Assembly: GCA_002069885.1 (NCBI GenBank)
Contig: MWCD01000006.1
Location: 1-64,000, forward strand
Length of the DNA stretch: 64,000 nucleotides
Direction of reading: 5' to 3'
DNA from: a bacterium ADurb.Bin236
Lineage (GTDB): Bacteria > UBP15 > UBA6099
Positions within the stretch are counted from its first letter, which is position 1, and each line of letters begins with the position of its first letter. The notes beneath the pieces are model-generated. The model made no database searches, was not told the DNA's origin, and saw only the letters and a list, made by a program, of their open reading frames with translations. Both the position numbers and the translations under genes were made by a program. Positions 14,455-61,679 of this stretch are shown piece after piece.

Positions 14455-15810
14455 ATGTCTCTGGACGATATCTGGAAAAAAACCGTCGAGGCCCTCGAGT
14501 CGAAGATAAACCATTCGGTTTATATGCTTCTCATCAAGCAGATCGCTCCCGTGTCTCTCGATGAAAGCACGCTGTATCTTAAAATCCCCGGAACGATGTC
14601 GATGAGCTACCTTGCCGAGCACAAGGAAGAGATTGAAGAAGCGGTTTCCGAAATACTGGGCATCAAGATCGATGTTGTGGCGATACAGGACGAGTCGCCG
14701 GAAACAATCGACGCAAAAGCGTCTCGCAAGCAGTCTGCCGCGCTAGAAAAACCGGCCGAGCCGCCTCATCCGTCCCGCATCGGAGCCGCTCCCCATCTCA
14801 ATCCGAAGTACACCTTCGATAATTTTGTCAGAGGCTCTACAAATCAGATTGCATACAGCGCCGCCCGCGCCGTCGCCGAGGCTCCCGGCAACGTCTATAA
14901 CCCCCTATTTTTCTACGGCGGCGTCGGCATTGGCAAAACCCACCTCATGCAGGCTATCGGCCACTATATTGCTTCGACCCGCCCGAATCTGATTATTGCA
15001 TATAAAACGACAAATTGGTTCATCCATGAATTCACCACCAGCATCCGCGAAAATCGAATGCATGATTTCCGAAATCACTATCACAAAATAGATGTTCTTC
15101 TTCTCGACGATATTCAATTTATAGAGGGCAAAGAAGCCACTCAGGAAGAATTTCACCAGATTTTTAACGATTTTTATGAACGAAAGAAGCAGGTCGTTTT
15201 AACATGCGACCGCCCGCCGAAGGATCTGCCCAAAATCGAGGACAGGATAATCAGCCGCTTGAGTTGGGGTCTTGTTTGCGATATCCAGCAACCTGATTTT
15301 GAAACCCGCGTTTCGATTATCAGAAACAAGCTCGACATCGAAGGCAATTATCTTCCTGAAGACATCATTAATTACATCGCCGAATATATCAGGACCGATA
15401 TAAGGATGCTCGAAGGCGCGCTGAACAGGCTTTTCGCTTATTCTAAGGTATCAGGCAAGGAAATAAACCTCGAAAGCGCGGAAAGAATAATCAAGGATAT
15501 CTCTCCTGAAAGCAAAAAAGAAGCTGTGACAGTTCAGAAGATTGTTAAGATAGTGGCAAACCACTACAATCTTGACGCGGCGGCCGTACTTGGCAAAAGC
15601 AGAAAGAAAGAACTTGCTCTAGCCCGCTCTGTCGCTATGTATCTTGCTTATGACATAACAAAACTTCCCCAGAGTTCCATTGGAAACGAGTTCTCCGGGC
15701 GAGACCATTCGACCGTCATATATTCATTGGAAAAAATCAGGTCGGAGATGGAATCCGACCCGGAGTTCAAGAAAACCATACAATATTTAAAGGATAGAAT
15801 AACCGGTTGA
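14455..15810 (+). CDS. dnaA: Chromosomal replication initiator protein DnaA
   Basis: 451 residues. Domain I at the N-terminus (DDIWKKTVEALESKI) is followed by a short linker and the AAA+ core beginning at KYTFDNFVRGSTNQ. Walker A GGVGIGKTHL is near residue 160, Walker B VLLLDDIQF near residue 215, and arginine-finger and sensor regions are intact. The C-terminal DNA-binding domain has the DnaA signature SIGNEFSGRDHSTVIYSLEKI. No strong ribosome site precedes the ATG, which is common for dnaA. It is followed by dnaN, with an AT-rich gap between them that may hold the origin. Confidence 0.98.
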   Translation: MSLDDIWKKTVEALESKINHSVYMLLIKQIAPVSLDESTLYLKIPGTMSMSYLAEHKEEIEEAVSEILGIKIDVVAIQDESPETIDAKASRKQSAALEKPAEPPHPSRIGAAPHLNPKYTFDNFVRGSTNQIAYSAARAVAEAPGNVYNPLFFYGGVGIGKTHLMQAIGHYIASTRPNLIIAYKTTNWFIHEFTTSIRENRMHDFRNHYHKIDVLLLDDIQFIEGKEATQEEFHQIFNDFYERKKQVVLTCDRPPKDLPKIEDRIISRLSWGLVCDIQQPDFETRVSIIRNKLDIEGNYLPEDIINYIAEYIRTDIRMLEGALNRLFAYSKVSGKEINLESAERIIKDISPESKKEAVTVQKIVKIVANHYNLDAAAVLGKSRKKELALARSVAMYLAYDITKLPQSSIGNEFSGRDHSTVIYSLEKIRSEMESDPEFKKTIQYLKDRITG

Positions 15811-17521: not shown

Positions 17522-17710
17522 GAGGTGGTTGGGGTAAACCCTTTGAAAAGGGTTGTTCCCCAAACCCCATTCCCAAACGTTTTACTCTAGCGGCAAAGCC
17601 GGGGCTGCGCCCCCGCCTTTGCCGCTAATAATAATAAGCGATGTCGAAAACCGAGCGAAAAAAGGGGATTGGCAGCGCGCGTCCCAGCGATGTCTGTACC
17701 CTCTTTTCGC
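17522..17710 (+). repeat. Modular hairpin repeat, full-length copy (family X)
   Basis: Forward copy 24 bp after the dciA stop. Main hairpin at about 17530-17561 (GGGTAAACCCTTTG / AAAAGGGTTGTTCCC), linker, second hairpin AGCGGCAAAG ... CTTTGCCGCT (17589-17627), and third hairpin GCGAAAAAAGGGG ... CTCTTTTCGC (17655-17710). Confidence 0.85.
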
Positions 17711-18110: not shown

Positions 18111-18166
18111 CGAAAAGCGGGCACAGGCAGCCGCAGAAACCGCGTTGCCAGTCCCCGTTTTTCGCT
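18111..18166 (+). repeat. GCGAAAA hairpin (third module), left flank of the islet
   Basis: 56-bp unit that differs from the unit at 19998-20053 at only six positions, in the same orientation. The two direct repeats bracket the AT-rich gene pair at 18341-19956. Confidence 0.8.
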
Positions 18167-18183
18167 CAAAGAGCAACATTCAA

Positions 18184-18212
18184 TTGACAATAAGCCCGCC
18201 CGATATGATATA
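18184..18212 (+). promoter_or_regulatory. Promoter for the 18.2-19.9 kb islet
   Basis: Exact TTGACA (18184-18189), 17-bp spacer, GATATA (18207-18212). It begins 18 bp after the hairpin repeat, so the repeat may have brought the promoter or its boundary. Confidence 0.55.
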
Positions 18213-18220
18213 GTGGAGCC

Positions 18221-18334
18221 ATGCAGAGAACAGCAAGAATACCGGAGACGATGGCAGGCGGGTGGGTGTTTCTTGTTTTTCCTAACAAGGAAAAACAGTA
18301 TAACATGACATATTATCAAGAGTATGGCGGGTAG
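18221..18334 (+). CDS. Possible 37-residue upstream ORF
   Basis: ATG 18221 follows GTGGAGCC (GGAG, 5-bp spacing) and sits 9 bp after the promoter -10 box. It encodes 37 residues beginning MQRTARIPETMAGG, with a short hydrophobic run (WVFLVFP), and ends with TAG 6 bp before the next ATG. It could be a leader peptide coupling translation to the downstream membrane gene, or a chance ORF. No family resemblance. Confidence 0.3.
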   Translation: MQRTARIPETMAGGWVFLVFPNKEKQYNMTYYQEYGG

Positions 18335-18340
18335 TGTTGT

Positions 18341-19108
18341 ATGACTTATGCTTTGACCGACAAACAAAAAGCGTTGTTGCGATATGCAGCGTCAAAACAT
18401 GTTGTGTATAAAAGGATGCGCCGCGCCGCGTTGTTTGTTATGCTCATCGGGCTCGTGTTTTTATCATATTCTCTATTCAGTTTATTGGATTCCAAGAGCA
18501 ATTCAATCATTCTGGAGTTTTCTTATAAACATGAGTTGAAAAGGCATGTTTTCATGATGTTAATCTTGGTTATGTATTTGATCGGGATATTAGGCGGATA
18601 TATTCATCATTTAAGATTATGCAAGTTTTTCTTGGAAACGCGCGACATATTATATAAAAATGGCATAACAGCAAACAATATGCGCAATGGCAACGTTAGG
18701 AATGAAATGACGCTTGCCAAATCCGAAGCTGATTCTAACGACCCTTCTTTTTTGTCAAACAAGCAACTCTCTTCTAGCATTCTTATAGCAAATAAATCAT
18801 TAAAAAACGGAAGGGCATTTATTATTTGCTATGCCGTATTAATAACAGCTTCTTTCATCGTTTTAGTGTTTATCGTTAATCTGCTGCTGACAATGAAAAC
18901 CGATATGATTATAGAAGAAATCAAAAGGCTCTCGTTATTGAAAAATGCTATGCTATCTGTTCTCATGATAATAATCCCAATTTTAGCCTGTTGCTGGCAA
19001 GGCAGAGAAAACAGAATTTGCGGCGCGTTAAACATGATGACGAGCGCGCTCGATGAAATGGATAAGAATATTGACAGATTTAGAGACGAGAATCAAAGCG
19101 AGAAATGA
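18341..19108 (+). CDS. Four-helix membrane protein, unknown
   Basis: 255 residues in an AT-rich islet. Two hairpins of membrane helices lie at about residues 28-48, 65-87, 165-190 and 205-222, separated by a hydrophilic loop of about 75 residues, with a charged C-terminus. No motif I recognise. The stop overlaps the next gene's ATG (ATGA at 19105-19108), so the two products are made together. Codon use is clearly AT-richer than that of dnaN or the SDR gene on either side, which fits acquisition as an islet. Confidence 0.7.
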   Translation: MTYALTDKQKALLRYAASKHVVYKRMRRAALFVMLIGLVFLSYSLFSLLDSKSNSIILEFSYKHELKRHVFMMLILVMYLIGILGGYIHHLRLCKFFLETRDILYKNGITANNMRNGNVRNEMTLAKSEADSNDPSFLSNKQLSSSILIANKSLKNGRAFIICYAVLITASFIVLVFIVNLLLTMKTDMIIEEIKRLSLLKNAMLSVLMIIIPILACCWQGRENRICGALNMMTSALDEMDKNIDRFRDENQSEK

Positions 19109-19956
19109 AAATATTGCCTAACAGCATAAAAGTAAGGTGGCGGAATATGAAAATGCGAAATGCGGCATTGGCGTCGCTTATTGTTGCGTTGGCGATCGTT
19201 TGCGGTTGCAGATCCGGCGCTATCGGTTCTTCTGGCAAAGACATCAAGAAAAAAGCCACAACCGAAAAAGCGTCTTTCATTGAAGCGGATATCAAGAGCC
19301 ATATATCGTTGAAAAAAAATGGAGGGAAATTATTCAACCAATATTACATGCCCATGAGAGAATCGAGGAGTTTTCTAGAAGTAAAAACATCATGTGATAT
19401 TTATTATGACAGGGATGGCGACGATTATTGCTTAAATACAATTACTTTTCTTACCGAAAAAGACGGGGAGTATCTAAAAAAGTGGTCATACTCAGATATT
19501 GAAGGAAGCATGGTTAAATTAGACGAAACAAGAGACTACATTTATTTCTTCACACGGGGCTGTTGCGGAGCTCCCAACATCATAAAGATATACAATAGGG
19601 AAGGAGCCTATTTAGGCGAGGCATTAGGAGACATCGGTATCGGTGATTTAGAAACGATTTGGCATGTCAGAGAAAATAATAACAATTACGCAAGAAACGT
19701 ATTGCTCGGCGTTAACGACGATGAGTTATTCATGATTGAAAAGTATTCTGGTATTATTTACAAAAGCGCGTTGCCGGATGATATTACGCTCTTATTTCCA
19801 GTTGTGGAGTTTGCCGACAACGAAACGATATCGCTTTACACGTTTAATAAAGATGAATGCGAAGTCGAGGCTTGTTTTAAGATAAACAAAGAGAAGAAAG
19901 TTCTCACACACAAAGAGACGAAAGTTGTTTATTGCTCAGAAACAGATTCGAAATAA
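19105..19956 (+). CDS. Predicted lipoprotein, unknown
   Basis: 283 residues. After a short basic N-terminus comes a hydrophobic stretch ending in IVCGCRSG, a plausible lipobox with lipidated Cys; starting at ATG 19147 (MKMRNAAL) would give a more standard signal peptide. The mature part is hydrophilic with repeated aspartate-rich turns (YYDRDGDDY, GVNDDELF) and strand-like segments resembling a beta-propeller-type surface protein, but no family is evident. It is coupled to the membrane protein before it. The pair is bracketed by hairpin repeats. Confidence 0.65.
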   Translation: MKILPNSIKVRWRNMKMRNAALASLIVALAIVCGCRSGAIGSSGKDIKKKATTEKASFIEADIKSHISLKKNGGKLFNQYYMPMRESRSFLEVKTSCDIYYDRDGDDYCLNTITFLTEKDGEYLKKWSYSDIEGSMVKLDETRDYIYFFTRGCCGAPNIIKIYNREGAYLGEALGDIGIGDLETIWHVRENNNNYARNVLLGVNDDELFMIEKYSGIIYKSALPDDITLLFPVVEFADNETISLYTFNKDECEVEACFKINKEKKVLTHKETKVVYCSETDSK

Positions 19957-19996
19957 GCAGAGAAGCAGGGAACAGGAGAAAGCAATCTCATTCCCG

Positions 19997-20182
19997 GCGA
20001 AAAGCGGGTACTGGCAGCCGAAGAAGACGCGTTGCCAATCCCCGTTTTTCGCTATGCTTTGACATGATAAGCGCCAAAGACGGAGGCGCAGCCCCGGATT
20101 TAGCGCTTGAGTGAAAAGTTTGGGAAAAGGGGCATGGGGAAAGAACCCTTTTCAAAGGGTTTTTCCCCAAACGCTAGAGGCG
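19997..20182 (-). repeat. Modular hairpin repeat, full-length copy (family X)
   Basis: Reverse-oriented copy lying between the converging lipoprotein and SDR genes. It runs from the third hairpin (19997-20053) through the second (AAGCGCCAAAG ... TTTAGCGCTT, about 20070-20110) to the main hairpin (20137-20170) and mini-hairpin. It forms the right flank of the islet. Confidence 0.85.
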
Positions 20183-20239
20183 AAAACTCATCCCCAACTC
20201 TTTCATCTTTAAATCGTTTTCCCGATAATTCGCGTTCAA

Positions 20240-21490: not shown

Positions 21491-21682
21491 TTTTTTCGCC
21501 TTCGGCGATTGGGGAAAAACCCTTTGAAAAGGGTTCTTTCCCCAAACCCCCTTTCCCAAACTTTTCACTCTGGCGCCAAAGCTGGAGCTGCGCTTCCATC
21601 TTTGGCGTTTATCATGTCAAAGCATTGCGATAAAAGGGGGACTGTCAACGCGTCACGCGCGGCTGTCTGTGCCCGGTTTTCG
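21491..21682 (+). repeat. Modular hairpin repeat, reference full-length copy (family X)
   Basis: All parts are visible in order: mini-hairpin CGCCTTCGGCG; main hairpin GGGGAAAAACCC/GGGTTCTTTCCCC around TTTGAAAA; AAACCCCCTTTCCCAAAC linker; second hairpin GGCGCCAAAG ... CTTTGGCG; TCATGTCAAAGCAT spacer; third hairpin GCGATAAAAGGGG ... CCGGTTTTCG. Confidence 0.88.
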
Positions 21683-30728: not shown

Positions 30729-31010
30729 TTAAGAGAAAACTTTTGAAAAAGTTTTCCCTTAAAATCCCTTTCAAAACGTTTCAATGCGCGCGGCGAAGCA
30801 GGCGCGTTCGCGCCTGCGCTTCGCCGCGCTTATGTGAAAAGATATTGCGAAAAGGTTTTCAAAGGATTCTAGTTCATAAATGACTTTATATGGGACGTCG
30901 GGATGGAAGCGCGTTGGCGATTCTATCCCGACGGCCAGTGAAACGTTTTGAAGAGAATCCAAAGAGAAACTTTTTTAAAAGTTTCTCTTTGGCTGCAGGA
31001 GGCGCTGCTG
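30729..31010 (+). repeat. Long-form repeat with terminal inverted repeats (family X, long type)
   Basis: Best uninterrupted long copy, about 280 bp. The left end GAGAAAACTTTTGAAAAAGT...CCCTTTCAAAACGTTTC is mirrored at the right by GAAACGTTTTGAAGAGAATCC and CAAAGAGAAACTTTTT...AAGTTTCTCTTTGG, giving imperfect inverted ends of about 55 bp. The middle has a GC-rich hairpin (GCGCGGCGAAGC ... GCTTCGCCGCGC) and a CGTCGGGA/TCCCGACG hairpin. Confidence 0.8.
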
Positions 31011-51286: not shown

Positions 51287-51492
51287 TTAAGGGAAAACTT
51301 TTTCAAAAGTTTTCCCTCAAAAGCCCTTCAAAACTTCTCCTTGCGCGCGGCGAAGCGGGCGCGTTCGCGCCTCCGTCTTCGGCGCGTGTCATGGGAAAAG
51401 ATATTGGGAAAGGGTTTTCAGTGGAAGCTTGTTCATAAATGATTTTACAAGGGGCGTCGGGAGGGAAGCGAGTCAGCCGATAGACGCCCCAA
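51287..51492 (+). repeat. Long-form repeat, right end missing (family X, long type)
   Basis: Between the divergent glpK and prfC genes. It begins AAGGGAAAACTTTTTC and keeps the GCGCGGCGAAGCGGGCGCG hairpin and the AAAGATATTGGGAAAGGG block, but ends after GGGGCGTCGGGAGG without the right inverted end. Confidence 0.78.
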
Positions 51493-53605: not shown

Positions 53606-53900
53606 TAGGCAAAAGCGCGTCATGTGAAAAGATATTGGGAAAGAGTTTTCAGTGGAATCTGTTTCTATACATGTTATTAGTTGATTCAACCCACTACCAA
53701 GTGTGCCACGCATAAAGCTTTTTCCTTTATGCATGATGTATCCCCCCAAATAGTTAATGGGAACTTTCATTTAATTCTTCGTATAAATGATTTTTCATGG
53801 GGCGTCAGGAAAAGACGCGTTTTGCGTGTCTCTTCCCGACGACGATTGAAACGTTTTGAAGAAATACAAAGAGAAACTTTTTCAAAAGTTTCTCTTTGGC
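53606..53900 (+). repeat. Long-form repeat with internal insertion, left end missing
   Basis: Keeps the GTGAAAAGATATTGGGAAAG block, the ATAAATGATTTTTCATGGGGCG segment and the right inverted end (CAAAGAGAAACTTTTTC, 53867 on). About 118 bp (53668-53785) inserted in the middle include a GCATAAAG/CTTTATGC hairpin. The left main hairpin is gone. It ends 30 bp before the stop of the thymidylate-synthase-like gene. Confidence 0.7.
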
Positions 53901-53931
53901 TTCTTTCTTCTTTTTATTATCTTTGCCGTTT

Positions 53932-61291: not shown

Positions 61292-61300
61292 CGCGATGTT

Positions 61301-61677
61301 TAAGGGAAAACTTTTGAAAAAGTTTTCCCTTAAAATCCCTTTCAAAACGTTTCCTTGCGCGCGGCGAAGCGGGCGCGTTCGCGCCTGCGCTCCGCCGCGC
61401 TCATGTGAAAAGATATTGGGAAAGGGTTTTCAGTGGGATCCTATTCATAAATGATTTCACATCATGCGTTGCGCAACCACAACCGTAGGGGCGACCCTTG
61501 CGGTCGCCCGAAATGTTAAAAGGGCGGGGGCAAGCCCCGCCCCTACGATTACGATTTTAAATGGGGCGTCGGGAGGAGAAGCGCGTCAGCGATTCGCTCC
61601 CGACGGCCAGTGAAACGTTTTGAAGAGAATCCAAAGAGAAACTTTTTCAAAAGTTTCTCTTTGGCCGCCGGAGGCGC
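61301..61677 (+). repeat. Long-form repeat with a nested palindromic insertion
   Basis: Both inverted ends are present: AAGGGAAAACTTTTGAAAAA at the left and CAAAGAGAAACTTTTTC at the right. An insertion of about 95 bp (61463-61559) splits it. It fills the space between the stop codons of the converging 60473-61291 and MBL-fold genes, ending 2 bp before the latter. Confidence 0.85.
61484..61547. repeat. Nested 64-bp cloverleaf palindrome
   Basis: Outer stem CGTAGGGGCG/CGCCCCTACG, and inside GCGACC/GGTCGC and GGGCGGGG/CCCCGCCC hairpins. It interrupts the long-form repeat, so it was inserted later. Confidence 0.8.
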
Positions 61678-61679
61678 TT

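Follow-up and report, generated by a model that had tools for sequence, protein, structure and literature searches.

We found that the two-gene, AT-rich islet between dciA and a short-chain dehydrogenase gene in the window (the whole 64,000-nucleotide stretch of DNA analysed) is replaced by other DNA in related genomes, and that the left edge of the variable segment is homologous to the 5′ end of a gene for a REP-associated tyrosine transposase (RAYT). The islet appears to be one allele of a variable gene slot. Its left constant edge is a RAYT relic made of a putative transposase promoter and the first codons, the rest of the gene having gone; on the right, the constant edge is a hairpin unit from a family of repeats found alongside RAYT genes in this bacterial order. 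Between these edges, the AT-rich genes differ among species of the genus. In our preferred reading, to which we give a probability of roughly 0.55, this is an exchangeable slot whose genes use the promoter of a dead transposase and whose content is replaced through recombination in or close to dispersed repeats. Transcription of the slot genes would start at the former transposase promoter, and related strains would trade alleles by recombination, homologous or illegitimate, with breakpoints at or near those repeats. We infer the activity of the relic promoter, the mechanism of recombination, and any benefit to the host from the DNA sequences compared below.

A variable gene slot next to dciA

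The genes dnaA, dnaN, and dciA, identified by Pfam, lie upstream of the islet, and the short-chain dehydrogenase gene and a zinc-ribbon gene lie downstream on the other strand; the dnaN protein is 99% identical to the metagenome-assembled genome (MAG) records JAKQBV010000032.1 and JAKQPS010000093.1. The locus of the window genome (denoted G000) was compared with that of three sister genomes, G001, G002, and G003. The entire locus is on one contig in G001; in G002, it is on two contigs, with the slot contig linked to the dnaN–dciA contig by flank similarity only; in G003, it is present from inside the slot rightwards only, the slot being cut by the contig end.

Homology between the window and both G001 and G002 extends to about positions 18240–18248 and returns at 19995–20092, with unrelated DNA between. 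The slot in G001 and G002 contains about 600 bp of AT-rich DNA (36–37% GC) with a 142-aa membrane ORF that was found in these two genomes only (2 of 41 genomes), and G003 has yet another sequence to the left of a shortened right unit. The comparison of strains that had been proposed in the initial annotation of this DNA thus shows that the gene pair is accessory and that the slot content differs among sister genomes. That annotation had also anticipated an allele lacking the pair and retaining a single 56-bp repeat, which was not seen at the slot: G001 and G002 carry the 142-aa ORF, and G002 has both 56-bp units with this different gene between them. No empty site of the dciA–dehydrogenase slot was found among G001, G002, and G003, the last of which is cut by the contig end. 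The placement of the islet edge at the left 56-bp unit had to be revised, as the variable segment starts about 75–90 bp inside the left unit, past the RAYT-derived segment, and G001 is missing the left unit but has kept the relic.

In G002, the left unit is located between two similar 15-bp stretches (L060:505–600), and in G001 a single stretch of this kind is present and the unit is absent (L058:5505–5530), as judged by eye. Therefore, either a gain or a precise loss of the left unit is possible, and the 15-bp stretches may be a target duplication or a deletion scar.

The dnaA gene of the window (14455–15810) is 96.6% identical to that of G002 and 86.7% to that of G001, whereas dnaN and dciA are about 95% identical to both; this pattern indicates recombination within dnaA. 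The short-chain dehydrogenase gene is 96.6% identical to that of G001 and 94.2% to that of G002; because dnaA is nearer to G002 and the dehydrogenase gene is nearer to G001, recombination near the slot is plausible.

The two genes of the islet

The islet had been described as AT-rich and unlike its flanks, and this was borne out by a GC content of 0.380 at positions 18261–19990, in comparison to 0.542 for the window. None of 623 sliding tiles of equal size in the window had a GC content as low, and so no other 1.7 kb of the window is as AT-rich as that of the two islet genes. Both of the ORFs that had been recognized are present on the forward strand. The first (18341–19108) encodes a protein of 255 aa with four predicted hydrophobic segments and no confident family, and the second (19105–19956) encodes a protein of 283 aa, or one starting at 19147 by the likelier start, also of no family. 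The hydrophobic N terminus of the second protein fits a lipobox pattern, and we take the protein to be a putative lipoprotein. The two genes had been called coupled: the 4-bp ATGA overlap is present, but the ATG at 19147 has the better ribosome-binding site by eye, and coupling is therefore uncertain.

A search of 98 genomes gave credible matches (E of 0.01 or better) of each gene in G000 only. A universally conserved pair of normal composition, which had been named initially as the counter-evidence to a cassette, was not observed. Beyond its own genome, gene 1 had a single weak match of 15.5 bits in G008, in a frame with a stop, and gene 2 had two weak matches of 18.2 and 18.3 bits. There was no match of gene 1 in phages, of gene 2 in plasmids or in the named genome collection, or of either gene in viral contigs. 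The protein family libraries gave no confident match for either gene; the best Pfam match of gene 1 was DUF2207_C (E of 0.0016), at 18.6 bits under a cut-off of 33. The structure model of the gene 1 protein was mostly helical (pLDDT of 66) and had no match in the PDB at an E of 0.001 or better, and that of the gene 2 protein had a pLDDT of 36. The position of a four-helix membrane protein beside a lipoprotein suggests, if only as a hint, an envelope role for the pair.

The RAYT relic at the left edge

The left constant edge consists of 62 bp (18180–18241, forward strand) that contain a putative promoter and the first codons of a RAYT gene. The putative promoter is composed of TTGACA at 18184–18189, a 19-nt spacer, and TATAGT at 18209–18214 with an upstream TG, and is followed by an ATG at 18221, which begins seven codons reading MQRTARI in a broken 37-codon frame that ends at 18334. 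A 75-nt match (18167–18241, 79% identity, E of 5.2e-11) links the edge to the upstream region and first codons of the RAYT gene in G002:C1, which reads MPRTARI at the corresponding codons. This gene has an intact frame of 226 aa and matched PF01797 with 45.2 bits (cut-off of 23) and the REP-associated tyrosine transposase model NF047646 with 67.6 bits, under the cut-off of 80. An ordinary promoter was considered for the left relic and rejected, because the match runs on through the first RAYT codons. A promoter scan that accepts spacers of 16–18 nt did not list the relic promoter, as the 19-nt spacer falls outside that range.

A model of the relic (R2), which matched the window relic with an E of 2.5e-19 by construction, gave sites with E < 1e-10 at three places in G000, three in G001, two in G002 (one of which is the intact RAYT), and one in G003. 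In addition to the slot, the relic was found upstream of an NfeD-like gene (Pfam match under the cut-off) in G000:C2 and G001:C98, of a SnoaL_2 gene in G000:C60 and G001:C139, and of a 318-aa ORF in G003:C21. At every one of the four separate relic loci, which together have five different genes downstream, the next gene is co-directional, four loci being few. In G002, a contig ends within the site orthologous to the ftsY relic locus, and the contigs of the relatives stop at the ftsY and SnoaL loci or are without the region. The promoter columns were invariant at 13 of 14 positions, compared to 17 of 50 in the rest of the relic (Fisher p of 0.0001), but we give this little weight because the rows were gathered with the relic stretch of the window as bait.

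Past the codons, several relics have DNA that is similar to the RAYT 3′ end, as expected for an internally deleted element, but the window copy does not. The shuffle fractions against the RAYT 3′ end were 0, 0.002, 0, 0.01, and 0.038 for five of seven relics and 0.55 (the window copy) and 0.78 for the other two; in an earlier run against nearly the whole RAYT, the values for five relics were 9, 11, 7, 39, and 111 shuffles of 300. The 5′ homology to a full element and the occurrence at four distinct loci besides the intact RAYT are as expected of a RAYT-derived MITE. The relic resembles MITEs (internally deleted transposons) in keeping the 5′ end and in having several copies with a RAYT 3′-like stretch; unlike in MITEs, neither terminal inverted repeats nor target duplications could be established, and any mobility of the relic is putative. 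A separate case, in which the internal deletion is directly legible, is a RAYT in G005:C112 (L089:1486–2864) that has kept its start and C-terminal end and adjoins a PIN-domain gene and a small partner gene, a toxin–antitoxin-like pair.

Mobile or reused promoters have reportedly been described in work on promoter propagation in prokaryotes. The relic is similar to these in being a promoter-bearing repeat (the promoter being putative here) that recurs upstream of unrelated genes, and differs in that it comes from a transposase gene and lies at the edge of an exchangeable slot. Among the titles and abstract openings of a partial literature library, we found none on a RAYT promoter relic reused by other genes. 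If the hairpin units mark the edges of exchangeable slots and the relic promoter drives the downstream DNA, the decay of a transposase would supply expression-ready landing sites, and this idea, if true, bears on how orphan genes gain expression.

The 56-bp hairpin family

RAYT-linked repeats are usually treated as selfish or regulatory DNA. The left unit at the slot (18111–18166, forward strand) was found by the repeat search and by a covariance model, R1, built from 20 copies of the 56-bp unit, and is at the same place in G002. In G000, G001, and G002 alike, the slot ends on the right at the right unit (19998–20053, forward strand), which is shortened in G003. The single-strand DNA folds of the two units had z values of −3.51 (left) and −3.6 (right), each better than 200 of 200 shuffles. 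The identity of the two units that had been noted initially was confirmed, at 50 of 56 positions. Their direct orientation holds in that both are on the forward strand, but the unit is a near-palindrome, so that "direct" is a weak statement; similarly, both units are present as the bounding pair that had been described, but the pair is not private, the units belonging to a dispersed hairpin family of about 30 copies. Two further units of the family are on the reverse strand, one to the left of the slot (17655–17709; R1 E of 1.6e-12, and repeat search) and one 1.6 kb to its right (21627–21682; R1 E of 4.0e-9).

Model R1 gave 30 matches in G000, 57, 25, and 24 in three genomes of the same genus, 25 and 34 in two other genomes of the same order, and none in one other genome of the same family, these counts being rough in that 150 candidates were scored per genome and some matches are the opposite strand of one unit. 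The units are short imperfect palindromes with many dispersed copies, as in REP-type sequences, and are physically associated with RAYT genes: the intact RAYT in G002:C1 has two of them upstream, and the internally deleted RAYT in G005:C112 has one. Of the 11 sites listed for model R2, 6 have a unit upstream of the start of the relic or RAYT, at a distance of up to about 110 bp. The GTAG tag was absent from both slot units, including 10 bp on each side, and the single CGTC string is on the minus strand of the unit at 19998, internal and not at the hairpin foot (position by eye). As the slot units are without GTAG, the term RAYT-associated hairpins is used here, REP in its strict sense being avoided.

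PMC3733652 describes two arrangements: REPtrons, in which REP sequences accompany RAYT transposases, and TIRtrons, in which terminal inverted repeats flank the RAYT gene. The units described here are similar to what is set out there in being dispersed imperfect palindromes of moderate copy number beside RAYT genes. They differ in that the two units tested are without the GTAG tag and in that the RAYT gene at the slot is a 5′ relic only, with other genes replacing the rest. The REPINs of PMC3116915 are close pairs of inverted REPs with no genes between; the units share with them RAYT-linked hairpin repeats and presence/absence evidence, whereas here the units are 1.9 kb apart with a gene-bearing slot between.

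Homology breakpoints at the units

Homology breakpoints were located in 53 further stretches around R1 units, chosen by us (13 from G000, 21 from G001, 9 from G002, and 10 from G003) and set against the slot loci, with the exclusion of blocks of less than 300 bp, of pairs with less than 900 bp of collinear homology, and of five stretch pairs (two rearranged and three duplicating the window locus or a neighbour). The stretches were picked around units, and loci without a homolog in the compared set never enter. The 31 orthologous stretch pairs gave 45 breakpoints, or 90 breakpoint sides. It was found that 40 of the 90 sides are within 100 bp of a unit, whereas 2000 random draws from the intergenic positions of the stretches gave 19.7 on average and never more than 32, and draws of any position gave 5.9; these counts are not independent, as one locus enters several genome pairs and the draws ignore the repeated use of a locus. 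A unit lies within 100 bp in either genome at 28 of the 45 breakpoints. Breakpoints therefore cluster at the units, and several are far from any unit, such as those of L120–L132 and the outer ends of L114–L159 and L119–L124.

At G000:C52, G000:C47, G001:C88, and G000:C27 (compared to G003:C26), edges are 0–25 bp from units. The variable segment at G000:C52 is 0.93 kb and ends exactly at a unit, in place of about 0.11 kb in G001 and G003. In the comparison of G000:C55 and G002:C249, the sequences diverge from the unit onwards.

These numbers bear on the strongest alternative, that of ordinary intergenic turnover, in which accessory genes come and go and the units and relic are old debris with no role. 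Consistent with it, several hairpin families crowd the intergenic regions of the slot, 64 of the 90 breakpoint sides are intergenic, and the left intergenic stretch of G001 is wholly unlike the others; however, units are closer to the breakpoints than to intergenic positions drawn at random (40 sides of 90, compared to a mean of 19.7), and edges coincide with units to within 25 bp at several loci. We consider this alternative unlikely, though it retains some weight.

Two lipoprotein genes of G001, in C138 and C5, have in common a 325-bp 5′ end (90% identity) and a 176-bp unit end (94%) with unlike middles, as if the gene bodies had been swapped between constant ends. This one pair of loci repeats the design of the dciA slot, constant ends with a variable body. 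The genes (L134:3919–5478 and L124:3490–5661) encode 370 and 524 aa, and the 176-bp 3′ end contains the 56-bp unit. A wider proposal would be that a dead transposon gave rise to a genus-wide gene-exchange platform, integron-like but without an integrase, in which gene bodies are swapped between constant ends: on the 5′ side, RAYT promoter relics or, in other slots, a promoter together with a signal-peptide end, and on the 3′ side, the RAYT-linked units; this is speculative, and we judge it improbable. The slot resembles integron gene cassettes in having a constant promoter edge (the promoter here being putative), interchangeable genes, and hairpin repeats. The two slot units differ from those of integrons in lacking attC core motifs, as no GTTRRRY or RYYYAAC boxes were found in the units and 10 bp on each side, on both strands.

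Transposase mobility, deletion, and assembly

A RAYT acting in trans could instead move unit-bounded DNA together with a gene, in which case islets would be passenger cassettes. The units adjoin RAYT genes and relics, the RAYT of G002 has its 226-aa frame intact, and there are unit-edged inserts at other loci. Matches to Y1_Tnp numbered two in G002, three in G003, one in G004, six in G005, and four in G006, but none was found in G000 or G001, the assemblies of which are 93% and 97% complete. Furthermore, no islet was present at two loci of one genome among the compared stretches, the nearest case sharing its ends only, and the two tested units are without the GTAG tag. We consider RAYT-driven movement of the islets improbable.

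It had been proposed initially that the two 56-bp units recombine and delete the pair cleanly, as with a cassette, leaving one unit. Two direct units do flank the pair, and a comparable state was found at G001:C138, where a 2.1-kb insert is edged by units and G002:C604 has one unit and 14 bp in its place. This single-unit state was not seen at the slot in three relatives, G002 having both units with the other gene between; the longest identical run between the slot units is 15 bp, which we judge short for RecA-dependent recombination; and at G001:C138 the two units are inverted, with the left break 284 bp from the nearest unit. We consider deletion between the units very unlikely as the explanation of the slot.

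A misjoin of metagenome contigs at repeats, placing a foreign 1.7-kb piece in the slot, is very unlikely, since, although the G000 assembly is in 169 contigs and G002 contigs end at these repeats, the islet joins a G000-specific version of the relic (86% to G001) and two other assemblies independently place a gene here.

Other repeats of the window

An Rfam search of the window gave no match. A second dispersed hairpin family, with a AACCCTTTTCAAAGGGTT core and many copies, adjoins the slot at 20130–20175 (fold z of −4.06). The short-chain dehydrogenase and zinc-ribbon genes are enclosed by inverted composite repeats of 147 nt (20040–20186 and 21493–21639) that are 87% complementary. A further composite repeat family, which has AAAACTTTT...AAAAGTTTT hairpins together with a CG-rich palindrome, is present in both orientations at positions 30729–31006, 51289–51473, 53615–53913, and 61300–61678 of the window.
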